Positions 1,903 to 36,249 of a DNA stretch of 40,497 bases are shown in pieces. Below the pieces are notes generated by a model. It was not told the origin of the DNA. It ran no database searches and saw only the letters and a list, made by a program, of their open reading frames with translations. The stretch comes from a virus. Both the position numbers and the translations under genes were made by a program. The stretch spans positions 1-40,497 of the IMG/VR virus record IMGVR_UViG_3300012964_000022; one strand, 5' to 3'. Position 1 is the first letter of the stretch; each line of letters opens with the position of its first letter.

Positions 1903-2580
1903 TTAATCTTTTTGGACTACAATACCAACCGCCGCATAGGGGCGATATGAACTAACGGTGGCCGCATCTCCGGTCGCGCCATGATTGTGCGCTTGTCCTC
2001 CACCAATCAAGCCTCCAGCGCCGGCGTCTATTTCTCCGAGCGAAGCACCGGCGGGGTTGAGCCCGTAGGGAAGGTTTATAGAATAGGTTGATCCCGTTCC
2101 ATAGAGATTAAAAGCATGACGGTGGGAAGGGATTTCATTCGTCGTCAATGTGAAATTCCCACTCGTGTGGCTATGATTCGGCTGCGTCCAGGTCCCCGCC
2201 AGGGTGCCTCCATTGACATTATAAGCCTGGGATCCGCCCTTGCAGGCCAGAACGATATCGGCGCAGGCGGAGACGATGGTCCAGCCCGTGGGCGCGGTGT
2301 TTTCATAGATCCACAGCTTCCTCCCGGCTGCCAGAAAGGCGTGGGGATCCCCGATCTTGGCCAGGTCGCCCCATTCGATCCAGGCGCTGTTGGCGGCGTT
2401 CCGGATCTTCAGTTTCCCGGTAGTCTCGTCCGCCCAGAGCTCGAATTTGTATTTCGTGCCGGGCTCGGATGCACCGGCCTGCAGATTTCCCAGCGCCTGC
2501 AGGGCCGCATTCACGGCGGAGCGGAAGCTCATCCCGGTGTTGGCGTCGGCGTTCGTTATTTCCAAATCGTGCTGTGACAT
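1903..2580 (-). CDS. Tail fibre/collar-like protein, first fibre
   Basis: The product has 225 residues. The start at 2580 lies one base after the stop of the large tail-tip gene, with GAGGGGG upstream. The first ~75 residues are shared with the fibre at 346-1500. The C-terminal part contains NHSHTSG, SHRHAF and AHNHGATG, followed by SSYRPYAAVGIVVQKD. This His-rich arrangement is typical of phage tail-collar/MdpB-type fibre tips, where the histidines can bind metal along the trimer. It probably determines host range. Confidence 0.8.
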   Translation of the reverse strand: MSQHDLEITNADANTGMSFRSAVNAALQALGNLQAGASEPGTKYKFELWADETTGKLKIRNAANSAWIEWGDLAKIGDPHAFLAAGRKLWIYENTAPTGWTIVSACADIVLACKGGSQAYNVNGGTLAGTWTQPNHSHTSGNFTLTTNEIPSHRHAFNLYGTGSTYSINLPYGLNPAGASLGEIDAGAGGLIGGGQAHNHGATGDAATVSSYRPYAAVGIVVQKD

Positions 2581-2581
2581 A

Positions 2582-5500
2582 TCAGTACCCCCTCGCCTCC
2601 CAGTCGATGGTCCGGGCCACGCCGGAACCGCCGGAATCGAGAATTTGAATGGTGAACCCCGTGACGGAAAGAGCCGTCAGTTTGATTACGTCGCCGGCCA
2701 GGGCCGATTGGATCGAGATCCCCACCACCGGACGGGCCATGAACGTCTTGGAAAAGGTTACCGCCAGGCCGCCCGCCCCCACGGAGACATCCTTTCCTTC
2801 TTCGATGCGGTCGGGCATATCGATGACGAACTGTGCCACGTCCACGTAGAGTTGCTGGGTGTCTTTGTTGGAATAGGCTTTCAGGCGGAACTTAAAGGCC
2901 CGGGCGGTATAGTCGCCTACCAGGAAATTCATCCAATCCCCGAAAGAAGTCCCATTCTGGGAAAGGGCGATCTGGGTAAGCAGCCCGACCTGATCCACCA
3001 CGCCGTCGAAATTGGCCACGGCATCGAAGTCCAAAATATTGTCGAAAAGGTTTTCCTGATCTATGCCAAAGAAGAAAATCGCCGCCGAGCAACGGGCGGT
3101 CTGCACAGAGCCCAAGTCTACCGGCGCCGTCTCGTAATATCCCACTGTGCTTCCCTGGGCTCCCAGACCATCCAGATTGGCCACGGCGTCCAGGTCGGTG
3201 ATGTCGTCAAAAACCTCCCCGCCGATATCCAGCCATAAATCCCCCGCCATTATGGCCATCTTGGTCTTAATCCCAGTCCAAGCGGGATTTTCGGTGAGAG
3301 TCTCCTGGACGTTCCATCTTAGGATGGTCGGGATCGTGGTGATTACCGCCCTGGCTGTCGCGCTCTCATTCCCCGAGGTGTCCACCGCCTTTATGAAATA
3401 GACTCCCGATTTGGCCGCGGGGAGGCTCAGGGATGTGCCCTTCGTGGCGGCCACGAAGATGGCGTTTGGCCATGTTCCGATCCCGCTGTCCGGGTGCCAG
3501 CGGATCTCATAATAATCGAGGTCAACGTCGGAGACCGGCGTCCATGATAATTTCAGGCCGCCCTGAGCCGTCTCCGACCAGAGATCGGAGATATCTTCGG
3601 GCGGCAAGGTTTTGCCATAGACATAAATCTCCACCGTCGGCGCCTTGGCAAAGGGCTCTTTCTGCCCGAGGCTATTCACCGAGACCGCGCGGATTTTGTA
3701 CGTGGAAAGTTCCTCTACATTCTCTAGGACAAACCTCCCATCCGGACAGCGGCCGGCATATTTCCAGCCCGAATTTTCGCGGGAATACCAGATCTCCGCG
3801 TGGCTGAAGACCGATGAACTGGGCCGGGTAAAAATAACGTCGATAACCACCCGAATGCCTCCCGTGCTCTTTTCCAGTCTCTCGTTCACCTCCAGCCCGG
3901 TGACCGGCGTTATCGGATCCAAACTCGAATAGTTGGGGGTGGCGATGACTGGCTGGGCGCTGTCCGAGCCGAAGACGCTCTCATTGTATTCCAGGAGGGC
4001 CAGGGTCACGGCCATCTCCTGGCTCCTGGACATGCCGATCACGGTGAAGGGCTTGGGCCCGGGCGTAGTCTCGCCCATCCAGAAAAGATCGTGCTGTTGA
4101 GGCACGGGATCGAAGGCGGAAGACAGATTCAGCACCGTATAGGACCCCGGATTATTGGTCACCTGGCGGGTCACCAGGACATCATTCTGCAGGCGGACCA
4201 TGACCGAATAGGACTTGCCGGCCTCGATGGTCACGGCCCGGTCCAGGGTGACCGACGTCGAGGTCGCGGAGATCAGGCGGCCCCCTTCGCCCCAGGCCGG
4301 GATATCGTGTTGCACGTAAACCTGGTCCCCTATCGAGCACCCCACGGCGTCAATATCCGCGTCAAATTCCACGATGCGCTTCAATACCCGGTTGCAGTTG
4401 AGCCTGTATTTCCCGTGGCGCCAGGCCTCGCTCGCCTTGGTGCAGCCAAAGAGATCCAGGGAGGCCGGGGGCAGATTCCTGGTCATGTCCGGGTCATAGA
4501 GGCTGAAAATTTCTCGGCGGTAATCGTTGTCCCGGTTCAGGAAATGGATCTCCAGTTCCGAGGCCCTCTCCTGGAGAGGAAGGAAGATTTCCTTAAAGGA
4601 ATCCGCTTTGATATTGCCGACGGTAAATTTGGCCGTCGGGTTCGTCGCCTTGTTGATCGCCAGGGAGATCTGGGTGCCGGTCGGGATGGGGATGCAGCGG
4701 GCCAGGGCGCATACCCGCAGGGCCGCTTCCCACATCGAAGTGGCGGAATCGAATACGCCGTTAAAGGTGATCCGCTTCTCGGTCCCGCCTTCACCGTCGG
4801 GGACCAACTCATCGCACCAGGCGGCCAGCTCGCAGAATTTATCCAGGTCCAGGCGCGACGGGTCCAGGCCGTCATAGCGGATCACACCGAACCCATTATT
4901 GAAGATCGGCTGGGTGAAGATGTCCCATAGAATCCAGGCGGGATTTTCTGAAAAACTGACATTCCAGGAAGAGCCGTTCCAGATCCGGACCAGCCTCCCC
5001 TCGCACATTACCGAGAAGCGCAGGGATCCCGAGAGCTGGTCCGTGGCCAAGGCGCGGATCCCCACCAAAACCTGGCGCGGGTGTTCCTGGTTGTCATAGA
5101 AGGATTCCCGAACCGCGGTCACGTACATATCATCTCCGTACCTGGGATCGGTCCGGTCATCGGTGAGGTTCGTTACCTCGATCTGGTATTGGCCGTGGGA
5201 AAGATGCTCCACCCGCGCGGTCCGGCGGATGGTCTTCTGGACCGCGGCCTTCACGGTGAGATAATCCACCCAAGTCTTGACGATCTGGGTATATTCCTCG
5301 GCGATCCAGCGCCAGAAATATCCGCCGGAGGGTTCCCCGTCATAGTGAGCGTAAGGATCCGTACCCCCGGTTGCGGACTCGTACCAGTATGGATAGCCTT
5401 CCTCTCCTCCGCCCATCCAAATGCCAAGGCTCCAATATCCCCCCGCGGTCTTGGTCTCCACATCAATTACCTGGTGGGTGATCGTCTGCCAGCTCCCGCT

Positions 5501-28323: not shown

Positions 28324-28731
28324 TTAATTCCATCTTACTTCCCGGTCCCGCATCGCCTTCAGCCCCTCGATCACCCGCTGCGCCGCTTTCCCGGAAAGCT
28401 CCTCCGGCTTCTCCTTCCCGGTCATCTTGCGGATGAACCCGTAAAGCCGCGCCGGCCACCACCCCAGGTCCTCCATGAGATGATAAATAACCTTCTTCTG
28501 CCCCTCGCTTGCATACTCGGGTAGGGGCGGCCCTGCGTGGCCGCCCGACCTTCGTTTTTTGAACCCGAGGGATTTGAAAACCAGGAGGACCTTCTCGAAC
28601 CCGAAATCATCCAGATGTACCGAAGACTCCGCCCCCCCATGCGCCTTCAGGATCTCCCGGTACTGTTCCTCCGAAAGCCCCAGCTGCGCCTTGGCGACAT
28701 GAATCAATTGAATTTGTTTTTTATTAATCAA
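28324..28731 (-). CDS. gemA: GemA-like protein (Mu gp16, DUF1018)
   Basis: The product has 135 residues from a TTG start at 28731. MINKKQIQLIHVAKAQLGLS at the start and WWPARLYGFIRKMTGKEKPE later fit Mu GemA/gp16, which affects host gene expression in Mu. The middle (RSGGHAGPPLPE, ~75-87) is encoded by a palindromic element inserted between the two conserved halves. The TTG directly follows a long pentamer array that supplies GAGGTAGGG as ribosome site. Confidence 0.84.
   Translation of the reverse strand: MINKKQIQLIHVAKAQLGLSEEQYREILKAHGGAESSVHLDDFGFEKVLLVFKSLGFKKRRSGGHAGPPLPEYASEGQKKVIYHLMEDLGWWPARLYGFIRKMTGKEKPEELSGKAAQRVIEGLKAMRDREVRWN
28521..28546. repeat. Oriented palindromic element inside gemA
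   Basis: GTAGGGGCGGCC, arms GGGCGGCC (28525-28532) and GGCCGCCC (28539-28546), loop CTGCGT. It is translated as SGGHAGPPL without a frame change. Confidence 0.85.
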
Positions 28732-28925
28732 AACCCTACCTCACCAAACCTGACCGCGCCTTTCCGCACCATACCTGTCCAGACCATGCCGCGCCTTTCC
28801 TAGCCTTTCCGCTCCGATCCTCGCCCTGCCTTGCCCCACCAGGCCCCGCCACGCCCGGCGCCACCCTAACACGCCATCCCGCGCCAGACCGAACCGGCCC
28901 CCGCCATGCCATCCCCTACCTCTCC
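28731..28925. repeat. 195-bp array of 39 pentamers, NNNCC (GGNNN on the coding strand)
   Basis: Reading pentamers from 28731, 37 of 39 end in CC; only those at 28856 and 28866 differ. The first three positions vary freely. The array fills the gap exactly from the stop codon of the upstream gene (28926-28928) to the start codon of gemA (28729-28731). On the transcript it is (GGNNN)n, which could form two-layer G-quadruplexes and offers many weak ribosome sites. There is no gene in it. Confidence 0.93.
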
Positions 28926-29474
28926 TCATTGGACCTCAAACCGGGTAACCTGGAACCGGCCAAAGGACCCGCCCTTCGCCGGGCGGAAATCGCCGATCCC
29001 CACATTACGTCCTGCTAGATCTAGCATCTCCTTCAAAACCGCAACCGGAATTTCCATTTCGTCCACGATGAATTTGAAAGACAGGGCCCATTCCCTGAAG
29101 CATGGTCTTTTCCTTAGGACGCGGCCTTTTGTCGCGGGGACCACGACAGGCCGGGAATCGATTTCCCACTTGGGATTTAAATGGGGAATGGCAAATGGTT
29201 CTATGATCAAATAGCCGCCCGAAACCACATTTTTGTAGGTGACCTTCCTCCTCCCCGGGATCTGGAAGCTGGGTCCGGCGGTCTTGAGCGCCCCCATCAG
29301 ATGCTCCGCGGGCTGATAGACTGTTCCATCCGGCAGTTGATAAAGGCTCTTTTTGATATCGGCATCGCCGGAGGTCGCGCTCTGCTTCTTGCTTTTTGCG
29401 TCGTGATCCTCTACGGCAAAACGATGCTGCAACAATGGCGAAATTCCCTCGATCCTCACCTCGATGGTTTTCAT
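28926..29474 (-). CDS. Conserved phage protein of unknown role
   Basis: The product has 182 residues from the ATG at 29474 behind GGGAGGAAATA; residues encoded further upstream come from a simple repeat. KTIEVRIEGISPLLQHRF and the later YQPAEHLMGALKTAG mark a protein type I have seen in other phages, between Gam and GemA. It has an alternating strand pattern that faintly recalls RAMP-like folds. A role in DNA replication or protection of ends is possible but unproven. Confidence 0.65.
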   Translation of the reverse strand: MKTIEVRIEGISPLLQHRFAVEDHDAKSKKQSATSGDADIKKSLYQLPDGTVYQPAEHLMGALKTAGPSFQIPGRRKVTYKNVVSGGYLIIEPFAIPHLNPKWEIDSRPVVVPATKGRVLRKRPCFREWALSFKFIVDEMEIPVAVLKEMLDLAGRNVGIGDFRPAKGGSFGRFQVTRFEVQ

Positions 29475-29491: not shown

Positions 29492-29530
29492 GTTTTCCCT
29501 TTGCGCCCTTCGCGCCTTTGCGTGAGATCA
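29492..29530. repeat. Simple repeat of CTTTGCGCC..TTTGCGTGAGA type
   Basis: It lies between Gam and the following gene, and includes the Gam stop. Similar copies stand at 30823-30846 and 33228-33256, always with tttgcgtgaga at the same end. Confidence 0.75.
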
Positions 29531-30037
29531 TTCCGTCTCTGTTTTTAAAATCGCCTCCACGATCCGGTCAATATCCGAATCCGTGGCCTTGATGAATACC
29601 TCGTCTGTATCATTATCCACGGTCACCCCGAGCTTCTTCAGGTCTGCCGCCGGCAGCCGTCCCAGGGCCTTCTTCACCGGGGTCTCCGTGACCTTTATCA
29701 GCATCTCCTCCTGCTCCGGAAAATGCTTGCGAATCAGCATCACCACCTTGGCCTCGTCCTCCCAGCTGATCTCACCCTTCTGTTTCTGGTATCCGAACCG
29801 GATCCCGTGCAAAATCATCGTCCGCGGCTTCACGAAACTCTCCGGGCTTTCCTTGATCGCGTCGTGCAGCGCCAACTGGTTTTCCGCCGCCGCCTCCGCC
29901 CACTTGCGGATCGCCGGCAACTGCTTCCTCTTCAGCGCCGCCACCTCCGCCTCCAGCGCCTGCACCCGCTCCTTCAGCATCATCCTGGCCCCCGCCAGGT
30001 CCTGCGCCATCCGATCAAAATCAACCCCGCTTTCCAT
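29528..30037 (-). CDS. gam: Host-nuclease inhibitor Gam
   Basis: The product has 169 residues from the ATG at 30037 behind AGGGAGGGAAG. An N-terminal coiled coil (LKERVQALEAEVAALKRKQL) is followed by the Gam signature (RTMILHGIRFGYQKQKGEIS). Mu Gam is a Ku-like protein that binds double-stranded ends and blocks RecBCD-type nucleases. It protects linear phage DNA. Confidence 0.9.
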   Translation of the reverse strand: MESGVDFDRMAQDLAGARMMLKERVQALEAEVAALKRKQLPAIRKWAEAAAENQLALHDAIKESPESFVKPRTMILHGIRFGYQKQKGEISWEDEAKVVMLIRKHFPEQEEMLIKVTETPVKKALGRLPAADLKKLGVTVDNDTDEVFIKATDSDIDRIVEAILKTETE

Positions 30038-30808: not shown

Positions 30809-31204
30809 CTACTCTTCCTCCGCGTCCTTTGCGTCTTTGCGTGAGATAAAATCCATCCCCATCTGCCCCACCAGCGCCGGCAGCGAGCACCCCCGCAGCC
30901 TCGACTCCACCGTCAGGCAGGCCATCGCGTAGCCGTGGTAATACCGGCAGGACCGATCCACTTCCTCCTCCGTGACCGGCGTGTAATACCCGCAGGGACC
31001 GGAGGCGATAGGGATCCCGTGCTCCATCACCAGGTGCTTGATCGCGCGCCTCACCTGCCGCTCGGAGACCCCGTCAAACAGGTCCATGAGCCTCTCCCGG
31101 GGAATGGCGTTGCCTTCACCCCGCCGCGCCCCGATCAGCTCCTTGAGATCCTTCTCCAGATCGGTCATCTGCCCGTGGTCAGGTCTTATCGACAGGTCTT
31201 CCAT
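30809..31204 (-). CDS. Winged-helix early protein with repeat-derived C-terminus
   Basis: The product has 131 residues from the ATG at 31204 behind AAAGGATACTAA. It has a helix-turn-helix (ERLMDLFDGVSERQVRRAI) and a short YYTPVTEEEVDRSCRYYHG segment. The final ISRKDAKDAEEE comes from a simple repeat (tttgcgtgaga family). It may resemble small replication or regulatory proteins of other transposable phages. Confidence 0.62.
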   Translation of the reverse strand: MEDLSIRPDHGQMTDLEKDLKELIGARRGEGNAIPRERLMDLFDGVSERQVRRAIKHLVMEHGIPIASGPCGYYTPVTEEEVDRSCRYYHGYAMACLTVESRLRGCSLPALVGQMGMDFISRKDAKDAEEE

Positions 31205-33223: not shown

Positions 33224-33227
33224 TTTC

Positions 33228-33292
33228 CCTTTGCGCCCTTTGCGCCTTTGCGTGAGAATATCTGCGTAAATCTGCGTAATCTGTGGATCAGA
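33228..33292. repeat. Two simple repeats in tandem before the MuB stop
   Basis: ctttgcgccctttgcgcc with tttgcgtgaga is followed by atctgcgtaaatctgcgtaat. They fill the gap between the zinc-ribbon gene and the MuB-like gene. Confidence 0.78.
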
Positions 33293-34463
33293 TCTCGAAC
33301 TGATTCATTACGTCTGCCACATGGTCCTTCGTCACCGTGAGAGACCCGTCCCGGTACGCCAGTTTCATCGCCCGCATGGCGACGTTGTTCGCCGCCTGCG
33401 GCTGCGGCGCCTTCTTCACCAGCATCTTCAGCGCGTCGTCGGAAAAGATCTTCCTCACTTTCCCGCCCGTGCGCGAAAACCTCCAGTCCAGGTAATCCGC
33501 CATGCTCCCGTTCATGCTCCCCAGGTCCACAAGGTAGCACCGCTCCGCGAATTCCCTGAGAGCGTTGTGGAAAAGGAGCGCGCCCTTCAGCCCCCATGCG
33601 CCCCGGCTGTCCTCTCCCCCCTGGCCGAGAATGATCACGCTCAACAGTTTGAAGATCATCCCCGAATCCCACAGCCGTTTGAGCCCGATGATCGCCTCCG
33701 GCCGGAGATCGTGCGCCTCGTCGATCACCAGCACCGGGTCGGACCCGGCCCTCACGCTCTCTTCCAGCATCCGCTTGGCGAGCTTGTCGCGCTCCACCGC
33801 GAACCTGGGGACCTTCGTGCAGTCCATCTGGGAGATCACCGCCTGGGTAATGTTCGACCCGCAGAGCCTCTCCCGGTCGATGGCGTCGGGCATGATCAGC
33901 CTCACCGACCGGTCCTTCATCATCCGGCCCAGGATGTGCCGCAGCAGGGTCGATTTCCCCGAGCCTACCTCGCCCACGACGGCCATGATCCCGTGCCGCT
34001 TGATCGTCTCCCAGAACTTCCGCTCCACCACCTTGAGCTGGGGCGACTTGTAGATATCCTGGTAATCCTCCAGGTCGAAGAAAGGATCCCCCTCCAAGTG
34101 AAAGTGCCGCAGTTCCTCCTCGGTCAGATACTCCTTCGTGAAATTCATCTCCGCCTTCACCTCCTTTTTTTCGAAATTCGAAATTCGAAATTTGCGCGGC
34201 TGCTTGCCGCGCGTGGGTTCCGGTTCCACCTGCCAGATCCCCGCACAGGCGACCTTGCGCGCGCGCAGGAAGGCCTCCACTTTTTCCTTGAAATCCTCGA
34301 TGGACGGGGGCAGGTATCCGCGCTCGCAGCAGACATTGATCAGCGGGCGGGAGAGCTTTAATTCCCGGGCCAGATCCGCCTGGCATATCCCTGCCTGGCG
34401 CAGCCTCTCTTTCAGCCGGATGGCCCGGCTCTTCATGCTCCAGACTTTAGCCTCGTGCCTCAC
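33288..34463 (-). CDS. MuB-like AAA+ ATPase, target-DNA activator
   Basis: The product has 391 residues from a GTG at 34463 behind AAGGAGGTGAGAG. Residues ~12-68 are an HTH (LRQAGICQADLARELKLSRP). The AAA+ domain has Walker A GEVGSGKS (164-171) and Walker B VLVIDEAH (244-251). Between them, residues ~90-100 (RKFRISNFEKK) are encoded by a GAAATTC repeat. An internal ATG at 34148 with AAAGGAGG upstream might give a form without the HTH. MuB-type proteins bind target DNA, activate the transposase and give target immunity. Confidence 0.88.
   Translation of the reverse strand: MRHEAKVWSMKSRAIRLKERLRQAGICQADLARELKLSRPLINVCCERGYLPPSIEDFKEKVEAFLRARKVACAGIWQVEPEPTRGKQPRKFRISNFEKKEVKAEMNFTKEYLTEEELRHFHLEGDPFFDLEDYQDIYKSPQLKVVERKFWETIKRHGIMAVVGEVGSGKSTLLRHILGRMMKDRSVRLIMPDAIDRERLCGSNITQAVISQMDCTKVPRFAVERDKLAKRMLEESVRAGSDPVLVIDEAHDLRPEAIIGLKRLWDSGMIFKLLSVIILGQGGEDSRGAWGLKGALLFHNALREFAERCYLVDLGSMNGSMADYLDWRFSRTGGKVRKIFSDDALKMLVKKAPQPQAANNVAMRAMKLAYRDGSLTVTKDHVADVMNQFEI
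34170..34193. repeat. Simple repeat of GAAATTC type inside the MuB-like gene
   Basis: Three copies of cgaaatt in tandem, translated as FRISNFE in the linker between HTH and ATPase domains. Confidence 0.8.
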
Positions 34464-34485: not shown

Positions 34486-36249
34486 TCACTGATTACTGGT
34501 CACTGTTCTCTGCCTGGCCGCCGCCTCCTTCGCCGGCGTCTCTTCTGTGTAGGGCGCGTTCCCCGAACGCGCCGCTTGCTCCTCTTTCATGCCCAGGTGT
34601 TTCCGCATGGCCGCCACCGCTTTCTCAATGCCATCCTCGTTCATTTCCTCGGAAAGGTACCGCTCCAAAAGCTGCGCCTGCACCGGCGTCAGCCGGCTCA
34701 AATTCAATTTCTCGCGGATGATTTTCCGGGCCTCGTAAGCGCTGTATTTCAATTCCGCATTCCGAATTCCGCATTCCGCATTCGTCAGGGCCGGCACTCC
34801 CGGCCGCGCCAGGTAATGTAGCCCCTCCACCTTGCCCCGCTGCGGCTGCGGCTTGATCTGCGAGATATCGATCTTCTTTGCCTCCACGTCGGCGATGAAC
34901 CGCTGGGTCTGATCGTAGGCGTGGCTTTTGTAGGACTGCCCGATCACCGCCGCGTCTTCCCGGAATCCCAACTTGTTCGTCATCACCGGCGCCGTCGCAT
35001 AGGTTCTGCCCGCTTCGTCCTCTACCTGGAACTGCCGGGGGTTGTAAAAGTCCGGGGTGATCTTCATCCGCATCCCCCTGCGGACCGGGCCCCGCACCTC
35101 GTAGACCGTCCCGTCGATCCGGATCTGCTTGGCCCCGTCCACCACCGCCGCGAATTCCTTACCGCTGATCAGCCTCCGGCAGATCTCCGGCGCCGGGAGG
35201 TACCGCAACTGCTCCCGGGTGATCGCCTGCCAGGCGCTGAACCTGGGCACCCCGGTCCGCCTGTGCTTGTGGATGGCGTTGAATTTCATGACGTAGTCGT
35301 AGGCCCGGGCGTTGAGATGCTCGATGTCCGGCGCCTTTTCCAGGGAGAGCTCGCTCTCGAAGGCGTGCTCCCAGGTGAGATGCGCGTTCTCCACCTGCCC
35401 GCAAGCCCTGGGATTTCCCGGTTCGTGGACGATCAGGTCCACTTTCAGATTCTTGACCAGCGTCCGGAAAGGGGCGGAGATATTCGCCGATCCCGCGTCG
35501 CACATGAGGATCCGCGGCACGCCGTGGAAGGGAAAAAGCTCCGGGTCGGCCTTCACCGCCCAGGCCCGCAGGACGAAGTCCACCAGGGTCCGCGTGTCCT
35601 CGCCGCGGACATAATAATAATAAGGATAGATCGTCCCCGAGGCGTGGTCGGTCAGCAGGTAGCGCAGCAGGATTTTCTTGATCTCCTTGAAGTACTGCGG
35701 CTTGTTCTTGTAGAAGGCCAGCTTCATGTCCCGGTCCACCATCTCCCACCGGGTCCCCTTGTCCTTGAAGTCGTACTGCACGCAGACCGAGGGGTCCATC
35801 TGGTGGACGTGGTTGGGATGGAGGGAGGCCAGATTGACGTGGGCCGTGGGGGAAAGCAGAGAGGACTGATTGAGCCCCATCTCCCGGAAGTAGCGGTTGA
35901 GCGTGCTGTCGCTCACCGTCCCCGGGGGGATCAGATTGTTGTCCTCCATCACCTCCCTGATCTTCCAGGTGGGCATGATGATCCGCTCGGTCTTCCGCTT
36001 GCTCTTGTAGGACAGGGCCGCCGCGGTCTCGATCTGCTCGGGGGCGAGTTTTTTCCGGCCTTTGTCGGCCCGCGCCTTGCTGAATCCCTCGAAGCCGAAC
36101 TCCCTGGCCACTCGGTAGACCGTGCCCCTGGACCAGCCCATCATCTCTACGTACTCCTGGACGATCCGGGCCTTATCCCCATTGGTCGAAAAGGCCAGCC
36201 GCCGCGCGATTTCCTCCCCCACTTGGGGGTCCACCAGGCCGGGGGTCAT
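34486..36249 (-). CDS. MuA-type DDE transposase
   Basis: The product has 587 residues. The catalytic triad is visible as D152 (VHQMDPSV), D251 (RILMCDAGSAN) and E287 (GQVENAH), with an HTH near 39-53 (WSRGTVYRVAREFGF). The target-interacting C-terminal region is altered by repeats: NAECGIRNAEL (7-bp array), ARSGNAPYTE (palindromic element) and the end TVTSNQ (a gatcactg repeat), which even gives the stop. It carries out phage integration and replicative transposition. ATGA overlap with the DUF3102 gene. Confidence 0.92.
   Translation of the reverse strand: MTPGLVDPQVGEEIARRLAFSTNGDKARIVQEYVEMMGWSRGTVYRVAREFGFEGFSKARADKGRKKLAPEQIETAAALSYKSKRKTERIIMPTWKIREVMEDNNLIPPGTVSDSTLNRYFREMGLNQSSLLSPTAHVNLASLHPNHVHQMDPSVCVQYDFKDKGTRWEMVDRDMKLAFYKNKPQYFKEIKKILLRYLLTDHASGTIYPYYYYVRGEDTRTLVDFVLRAWAVKADPELFPFHGVPRILMCDAGSANISAPFRTLVKNLKVDLIVHEPGNPRACGQVENAHLTWEHAFESELSLEKAPDIEHLNARAYDYVMKFNAIHKHRRTGVPRFSAWQAITREQLRYLPAPEICRRLISGKEFAAVVDGAKQIRIDGTVYEVRGPVRRGMRMKITPDFYNPRQFQVEDEAGRTYATAPVMTNKLGFREDAAVIGQSYKSHAYDQTQRFIADVEAKKIDISQIKPQPQRGKVEGLHYLARPGVPALTNAECGIRNAELKYSAYEARKIIREKLNLSRLTPVQAQLLERYLSEEMNEDGIEKAVAAMRKHLGMKEEQAARSGNAPYTEETPAKEAAARQRTVTSNQ
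34549..34573. repeat. Oriented palindromic element inside the transposase gene
   Basis: TGTAGGGCGCGTTC with arms GGCGCGTTC (34553-34561) and GAACGCGCC (34565-34573), loop CCC. It reads RSGNAPYTE near the C-terminus. Confidence 0.86.
34750..34783. repeat. 7-bp tandem repeat (ATTCCGC-type), translated in the transposase
   Basis: Imperfect units of attccgc/attccga code for NAECGIRNAEL. The same family is intergenic at 28290-28322. Confidence 0.82.

Follow-up and report, generated by a model that had tools for sequence, protein, structure and literature searches.

A (GGNNN)39 array beside vipr in a transposable phage, read as a probable VIPR guide RNA locus

The IMG/VR virus record IMGVR_UViG_3300012964_000022 (positions 1 to 40,497; this whole stretch of 40,497 nucleotides is hereafter the window) carries a 195-base array of 39 pentamers, (GGNNN)39, at 28731..28925 on the minus strand, between vipr (28926..29474, minus strand) and gemA (PF06252; 28324..28731, minus strand). 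We interpret the array, at a probability of about 0.9, as encoding the guide RNA (vrRNA) for a Viral Interference Programmable Repeat (VIPR) system in a transposable phage, with units 1–23 forming a guide against MuB-like genes of other transposable phages and units 24–38 probably forming a second guide against a gemA gene. According to the main text of a 2026 preprint (PMC13142463; doi 10.64898/2026.04.26.720920), VIPR comprises a small phage-encoded RAMP protein and guide RNAs in which GGY alternates with NN; the NN dinucleotides pair with DNA, one target base (every third base) being skipped per unit, and the system represses transcription in rival phages, prophages and satellites. The basis for our interpretation is the sequence of the repeat, its tie to vipr, the predicted fold of the vipr product, the match of guide 1 and the lack of a match in the phage's own genome, whereas RNA binding, one-base-skip pairing with DNA and repression at this locus would follow by analogy with the preprint's other members. 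The window is assigned to a transposable phage because it contains a MuA-like transposase gene (phrog_310; 34486..36249, minus strand).

The array and its link to vipr

A reading of the sequence alone had reported that 37 of 39 consecutive pentamers end in CC on the plus strand, that is GGNNN on the minus strand, and a recount gave the same figure with all CC ends in phase. Counting 5′ to 3′ on the minus strand, GG is absent from units 12 (GTTAG, 28866–28870) and 14 (CGCCG, 28856–28860). The array fills the gene junction with nothing left over, as also stated there, beginning directly after the TGA of vipr (28926–28928) and overlapping the TTG start of gemA with its final base. Identity at lag 5, proposed as a check, is 0.537, compared with 0.346 (standard deviation 0.029, maximum 0.453) in 5,000 dinucleotide-preserving shuffles, which reach at best 20 in-phase GG doublets versus the 37 observed; selection on GG spacing, the explanation offered for a preserved period with variable filling, is supported. 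That the other three bases vary stood in so far as 27 of the 39 units are distinct, one two-unit word and no three-unit word being repeated (near the expectation from unit shuffles); it did not stand for the third base, which is a pyrimidine in 27 of the 37 GG units. No second array of this kind was found in the window in a scan of eight doublets at periods 3–8.

Arrays of this form recur in other phages. An IMG/VR pattern scan with a query of eleven perfect units returned at least 120 stretches, with high-entropy arrays in at least 90 contigs, the window included. Among the matches listed, the median pyrimidine fraction at the third base of the arrays in these contigs was 1.0, so that the unit is better written GGYNN. 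With a 201-aa open reading frame (ORF) reaching 29531 as the phmmer query, which is an N-terminal over-extension of vipr, relatives were found in 59 of the 89 other pattern-picked contigs (E ≤ 0.01, a few borderline; among the matches listed). The products of gemA, gam and four other neighbours used as queries gave none in the 89 contigs, bar one borderline match obtained with a 64-aa protein as the query. A profile built from the phmmer matches raised the vipr figure to 67 of 89, again among the matches listed and not an independent count, being trained on contigs of the same set. A pattern scan of genome contigs returned, among the matches listed, mostly low-entropy repeats, many of them in Actinobacteria.

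Selecting loci by the protein instead, we found a same-strand array at 73 of 80 IMG/VR loci and an opposite-strand array at one of the 80. After clustering the proteins at 90% identity, 39 of 45 clusters have an array, and 35 of 41 once the pattern-scan contigs are removed; control loci have none (0 of 64 over 616 kb), among them 16 gemA loci (0 of 16). Annotated phage and plasmid records fetched by protein similarity carry an array in six of seven cases, the exception being the Azospirillum oryzae plasmid L279, whose vipr relative (2489–3253) has no array in the 5.5 kb examined. The arrays sit on either side of vipr and, with few exceptions, on its strand. The placement of an array in the non-coding gap beside vipr, a VIPR trait, is seen both in the window, where the array abuts the vipr stop codon, and in the 73 of 80 relatives. 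Most vipr relatives have arrays, of other lengths and contents, rather than the normal spacer without a period that would have spoken against the sequence-only reading. The array belongs with the upstream gene vipr, not with gemA. The closest relative found, IMG/VR contig 3300033489_000052 (L347), encodes a Vipr 66% identical to that of the window and a relative of the MuA-like transposase. As in the window, its array follows the vipr stop immediately and on the same strand; unlike the window, it has 23 units with unrelated NN, a hairpin after the array and no gemA relative in the stretch examined.

Eight Felixounavirus genomes, in which seven vipr genes are 96–98% identical to the eighth, give a view of how the arrays change. 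The 120 bases past one array have a mean identity of 98.8%, and the fourth and fifth unit positions agree in 39% and 46% of comparisons over 28 pairs (32% and 40% without three array-sharing pairs); GG and the period are kept while NN changes. The pattern indicates that array content is exchanged on a fixed scaffold. In these genomes (L278 and L282–L288) the arrays belong to repeated modules on both sides of vipr, in which the GGYNN units are accompanied by a leader resembling a hairpin and by a conserved segment resembling a tail; the number of modules differs among near-identical phages. A repeat that codes for protein was considered and rejected, given the period of five and the freely varying array lengths in the Felixounavirus alignments; in the window, ORFs of 58 and 62 aa run across the array.

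The vipr product, a 182-aa protein assigned to phrog_4652 (unknown function), had no match in Pfam, NCBIfam or PADLOC. Its structure was predicted confidently from an alignment of 53 relatives (mean predicted local distance difference test score (pLDDT) 90.1; predicted template modelling score (pTM) 0.86), and the best PDB matches of the model are type VII Cas7 and Csm3, with a Foldseek E value of 1.6e-8 to 8z4j_J and a Z of 12.6 over 162 residues to 8do6_E. All PDB matches listed for the model are CRISPR effector proteins, although middling Z values are common in general. Vipr is accordingly modelled as a small Cas7-fold protein. Cas7 and Csm3 backbone proteins line up along CRISPR RNA. In VIPR as published, a glycine-rich loop and a thumb of the protein hold the guide RNA. 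In the family of the window protein, a C-terminal motif contains G159 and G172, which are invariant, and G155, R164 and P165, which are nearly so.

Guide content

We searched IMG/VR for targets with three separate stretches of the array, using each unit's final dinucleotide and leaving one free base between units. Units 3–9 gave 12 matches, of which five (L311–L315) fall in one gene family and extend beyond the query. In L311, units 1–11 match at 22 of 22 bases and units 1–28 at 44 of 56; beyond the seven searched units the match is 34 of 64 bases, compared with 16.2 (standard deviation 3.5) in unit shuffles, one in 100,000 of which reached it. The best 14-unit score in the target region is 26 of 28 with a one-base skip versus 16–18 of 28 with other skips. 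All through the match it is the wobble base that is passed over, so the units cover the first two bases of successive codons. The target gene has matches to phrog_296 (DNA transposition protein) and to an AAA domain, and the matched stretch encodes ESMIGPSLAMVTGPAGRGKSEAAK, which contains the Walker A motif. In guide 1 (units 1–23; 28811..28925, minus strand) the NN correspond, one base being skipped per unit, to the part of MuB-like genes that encodes Walker A. At the places where units 12–28 depart from these genes, the array still reads as Walker A (G-R-V-G-L-G-K-S), and guide 1 may have been written from a relative of these MuB-like genes that lies outside the collections.

Four of the five target contigs also hold a relative of the window phage's gemA, and some hold relatives of its early gene at 30809–31204, its portal or its terminase, on which grounds they look like other transposable phages. 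The 26 loci fetched with the target protein, five of them L311–L315, score 39–44 of 56 and, being one family, are counted as one match. A bacterial genome from the phylum of a Desulfobulbaceae assembly has a target gene 91% identical, again with 22 of 22 and 44 of 56 bases matched. The phage's own genome reaches at best 29 of 56 and its own MuB-like transposition ATPase gene (phrog_296; 33288..34463, minus strand) 25 of 56, in keeping with the VIPR trait that competing mobile elements rather than self are targeted, here the phrog_296 gene of other transposable phages. A local target search in 2.2 Mb of collected loci gave 17 of 20 at best, equal to shuffles. The NN bases are not mere filling, the one-base-skip reading matching a gene of a rival phage. 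Another array, at L135:7799–7880 in a VIPR contig, matches with one base skipped a stretch resembling an HNH endonuclease in each of two loci that are unrelated, L039 (21 of 22) and L279 (20 of 22); in L279 this stretch lies just before the vipr relative.

The second guide is tentative. The NN of units 24–38 (probable guide 2; 28736..28810, minus strand) resemble N-terminal codons of gemA genes. In a set of 29 gemA genes, of which 28 come from the phylum of the Desulfobulbaceae assembly, units 24–33 match 18 of 20 bases in L477, a score that none of 2,000 shuffles reached; at match-window lengths of 9–13 the test was reached by 0–8 of 2,000 shuffles, compared with 120–1,239 of 2,000 for the control units 1–22. 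All 15 units together give at best 21 of 30, unrelated matches giving 19–20. Several results are weak for this guide or count against it: with 15 gemA genes the 10-unit score was reached by 9 of 60 shuffles, with four genes from the target contigs the score was reached by 3 of 300, and over 26 whole loci the match was no better than shuffles. For many of the 29 gemA-like genes the fetched sequence contains no relative of MuB or MuA, which is why we keep the assignment tentative, and a prophage bearing both targets was found in none of 20 fetched regions. On the sequence matches, we lean towards units 24–38 addressing the beginning of a gemA gene. Within one phylum, chromosomal stretches such as L503 and L512 carry a gemA-like gene (KKKALVHIAKEDLHL...), and the sequence fetched around it contains no relative of MuB or MuA.

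Relation to VIPR and competing explanations

The window locus resembles published VIPR loci in its small phage protein with a RAMP/Cas7 fold, its same-strand GG(Y)NN array (GG present in 37 of 39 units and followed by Y in 27 of these 37), its hypervariable NN and its position in a flanking non-coding gap, and in having a target in a rival phage that becomes legible when each unit passes over one base, the wobble base. It differs in its 38 unbroken units, in having no recognised tail or vap gene, in a less strict third base, in lying within the early operon of a transposable phage between vipr and gemA, and in its targets, which are transposition genes. VIPR has been divided into seven types, with the accessory gene vap typical and not universal; the vrRNAs of type II (SUSP1-like) have 9–16 repeats and a conserved structured 3′ tail (main text of PMC13142463). 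The window has no such RNAs, its 38 units forming one run followed by the gemA start codon; since this 9–16-unit RNA with its tail is missing and no vap was recognised, we classify the locus, by its features, as VIPR without naming a type. Vipr shares its predicted fold with the Class 1 CRISPR–Cas backbone (Cas7/Csm3; type VII Cas7), but it is a lone small protein with no other cas genes or CRISPR repeats adjoining, the repeat is a pentamer rather than repeat-spacer units, the neighbours are gam and gemA, and Vipr has no PADLOC match. In a literature search, a non-contiguous guide code was described in PMC13142463 only.

By the mechanism we propose, Vipr would form a row on the GG repeats of the array RNA, and the final dinucleotide of each unit would pair with a strand of target DNA, one target base being skipped per unit. 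In other transposable phages, guide 1 (units 1 to about 23) would be directed at the MuB-like ATPase gene, where it encodes Walker A, and guide 2 (units 24–38) probably at the beginning of a gemA gene. Binding would stop these early genes from being transcribed and prevent replication of the rival phage. MuB-like ATPases serve transposition, as established for Mu, so silencing a MuB-like gene would block the rival's replication.

A number of observations weigh against this interpretation. Twenty-two of 90 array contigs have no vipr match in the stretch examined (among the matches listed), and six of 45 vipr clusters (L356, L389, L391, L408, L409 and L423) have no array in theirs. The window unit is looser than that of published VIPR, with a third-base pyrimidine in 27 of 37 units, and its 38 units exceed the published 9–16. 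No 3′ tail hairpin was recognised at the window array, nor any vap gene beside vipr, whose neighbours are gam and gemA, the preprint's vap families not having been used as queries. The guide 1 match weakens past unit 11 (22 of 34 bases over units 12–28). Of the other stretches searched in IMG/VR, units 15–21 gave 24 matches with no extension among the best, and units 28–35 gave 12 matches with flanks of 16–21 of 62, near chance, and no extension. A perfect or near-exact target was found in none of 395 bacterial genomes, and 396 other arrays decoded in bulk on the collected sequence gave no clear one-base-skip excess.

Some of these points would also fit an inert VIPR guide locus, one that has decayed and whose likeness to MuB is the trace of a former target: GG has been lost from units 12 and 14, the third base is relaxed, and neither a perfect target in the 395 genomes nor a tail or vap was recognised. 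We consider this unlikely, since 37 of the 39 pentamers retain in-phase GG, vipr has an open frame whose product is predicted to fold confidently, and units 1–11 match at 22 of 22 bases. Alternatively, the array might serve Vipr as a decoy or a track to bind, for instance in autoregulation of its own message, with NN devoid of information. This would produce the same strand-specific linkage to vipr and the same free turnover of NN; it is rendered improbable by an NN match to a MuB-like gene far beyond shuffles, in the frame predicted by the preprint's rule. A protein-binding track was one of three suggestions of the sequence-only reading, which was right to that extent.

Its other two suggestions were two-layer G-quadruplexes in a stack and a track for ribosome sliding between stop and start; neither these nor translational coupling to gemA found support. 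GG every five bases is compatible on paper with two-layer quadruplexes, the array links a stop codon to a start codon, and its ordinary base-pair folding, which leaves quadruplexes aside, is somewhat better than that of shuffles (z −2.53). Against such a structure in the mRNA, arrays accompany vipr, before or after it, and not gemA; quadruplexes need neither an exact spacing of five nor a pyrimidine after GG; and the NN match a rival gene when read with one base skipped. We regard a role of this kind as very improbable. No Rfam family matched the window at the gathering threshold, hence there is no hammerhead. Slippage, finally, in the manner of a microsatellite or of the several heptamer and nonamer arrays in the window, was judged insufficient by the earlier reading and is rejected here with near certainty: the units differ and hardly recur as longer words, and Tandem Repeats Finder picks out only a 24-base fragment (28833–28856).

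Neighbouring features and implications

Upstream of vipr lies gam (29528..30037, minus strand), encoding a Mu Gam-like host-nuclease inhibitor (PF07352); the interval between the two genes has no vap-like gene. A heptamer array, ATTCCGC, occurs at two gene junctions of the phage (28290–28321 and 34752–34783), as does a nonamer array, CCCTTTGCG (29497–29522 and 33227–33252), which reads as ISRKGAKGAKGK in over-extended ORFs. The host of the phage was sought and not found. In four annotated phages vipr is closely followed by another small gene, some 150 codons long (L275:3079–3570, L276:3070–3525, L277:3034–3477 and L278:3088–3528), which is perhaps a vap gene; no such gene follows vipr in the window. 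Among 13 related loci compared with Rfam, two matched the int-alpA RNA (RF02996; L020:1635–1704 and L385:1241–1310; 36.8 bits against a gathering threshold of 35.8) and nothing more was matched.

The array was spotted from the bare sequence, VIPR playing no part, and the rule for decoding given in the preprint, used unadjusted, led to a named gene of rival phages; on our interpretation the decoded array would lend independent support to the non-contiguous guide code, extend VIPR to a transposable phage that targets transposition functions and make a conflict partner of a phage readable from its genome. A further step, which we think doubtful, is that the array consists of two end-to-end guides, each collinear with unbroken codons of a rival (about 23 of a MuB-like ATPase and about 13–15 of gemA) as one long guide or a tiled set, and that arrays are written by active copying. 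Two such guides, if real, together with the en-bloc turnover of NN between near-identical phages, would mean that an active process copies the first two positions of each target codon into the GG scaffold of an array, a mode of memory acquisition absent from the main text of PMC13142463. A collinear run of at least 20 or so codons, together with the wholesale exchange of NN in Felixounaviruses, would make guide acquisition testable in public genomes.
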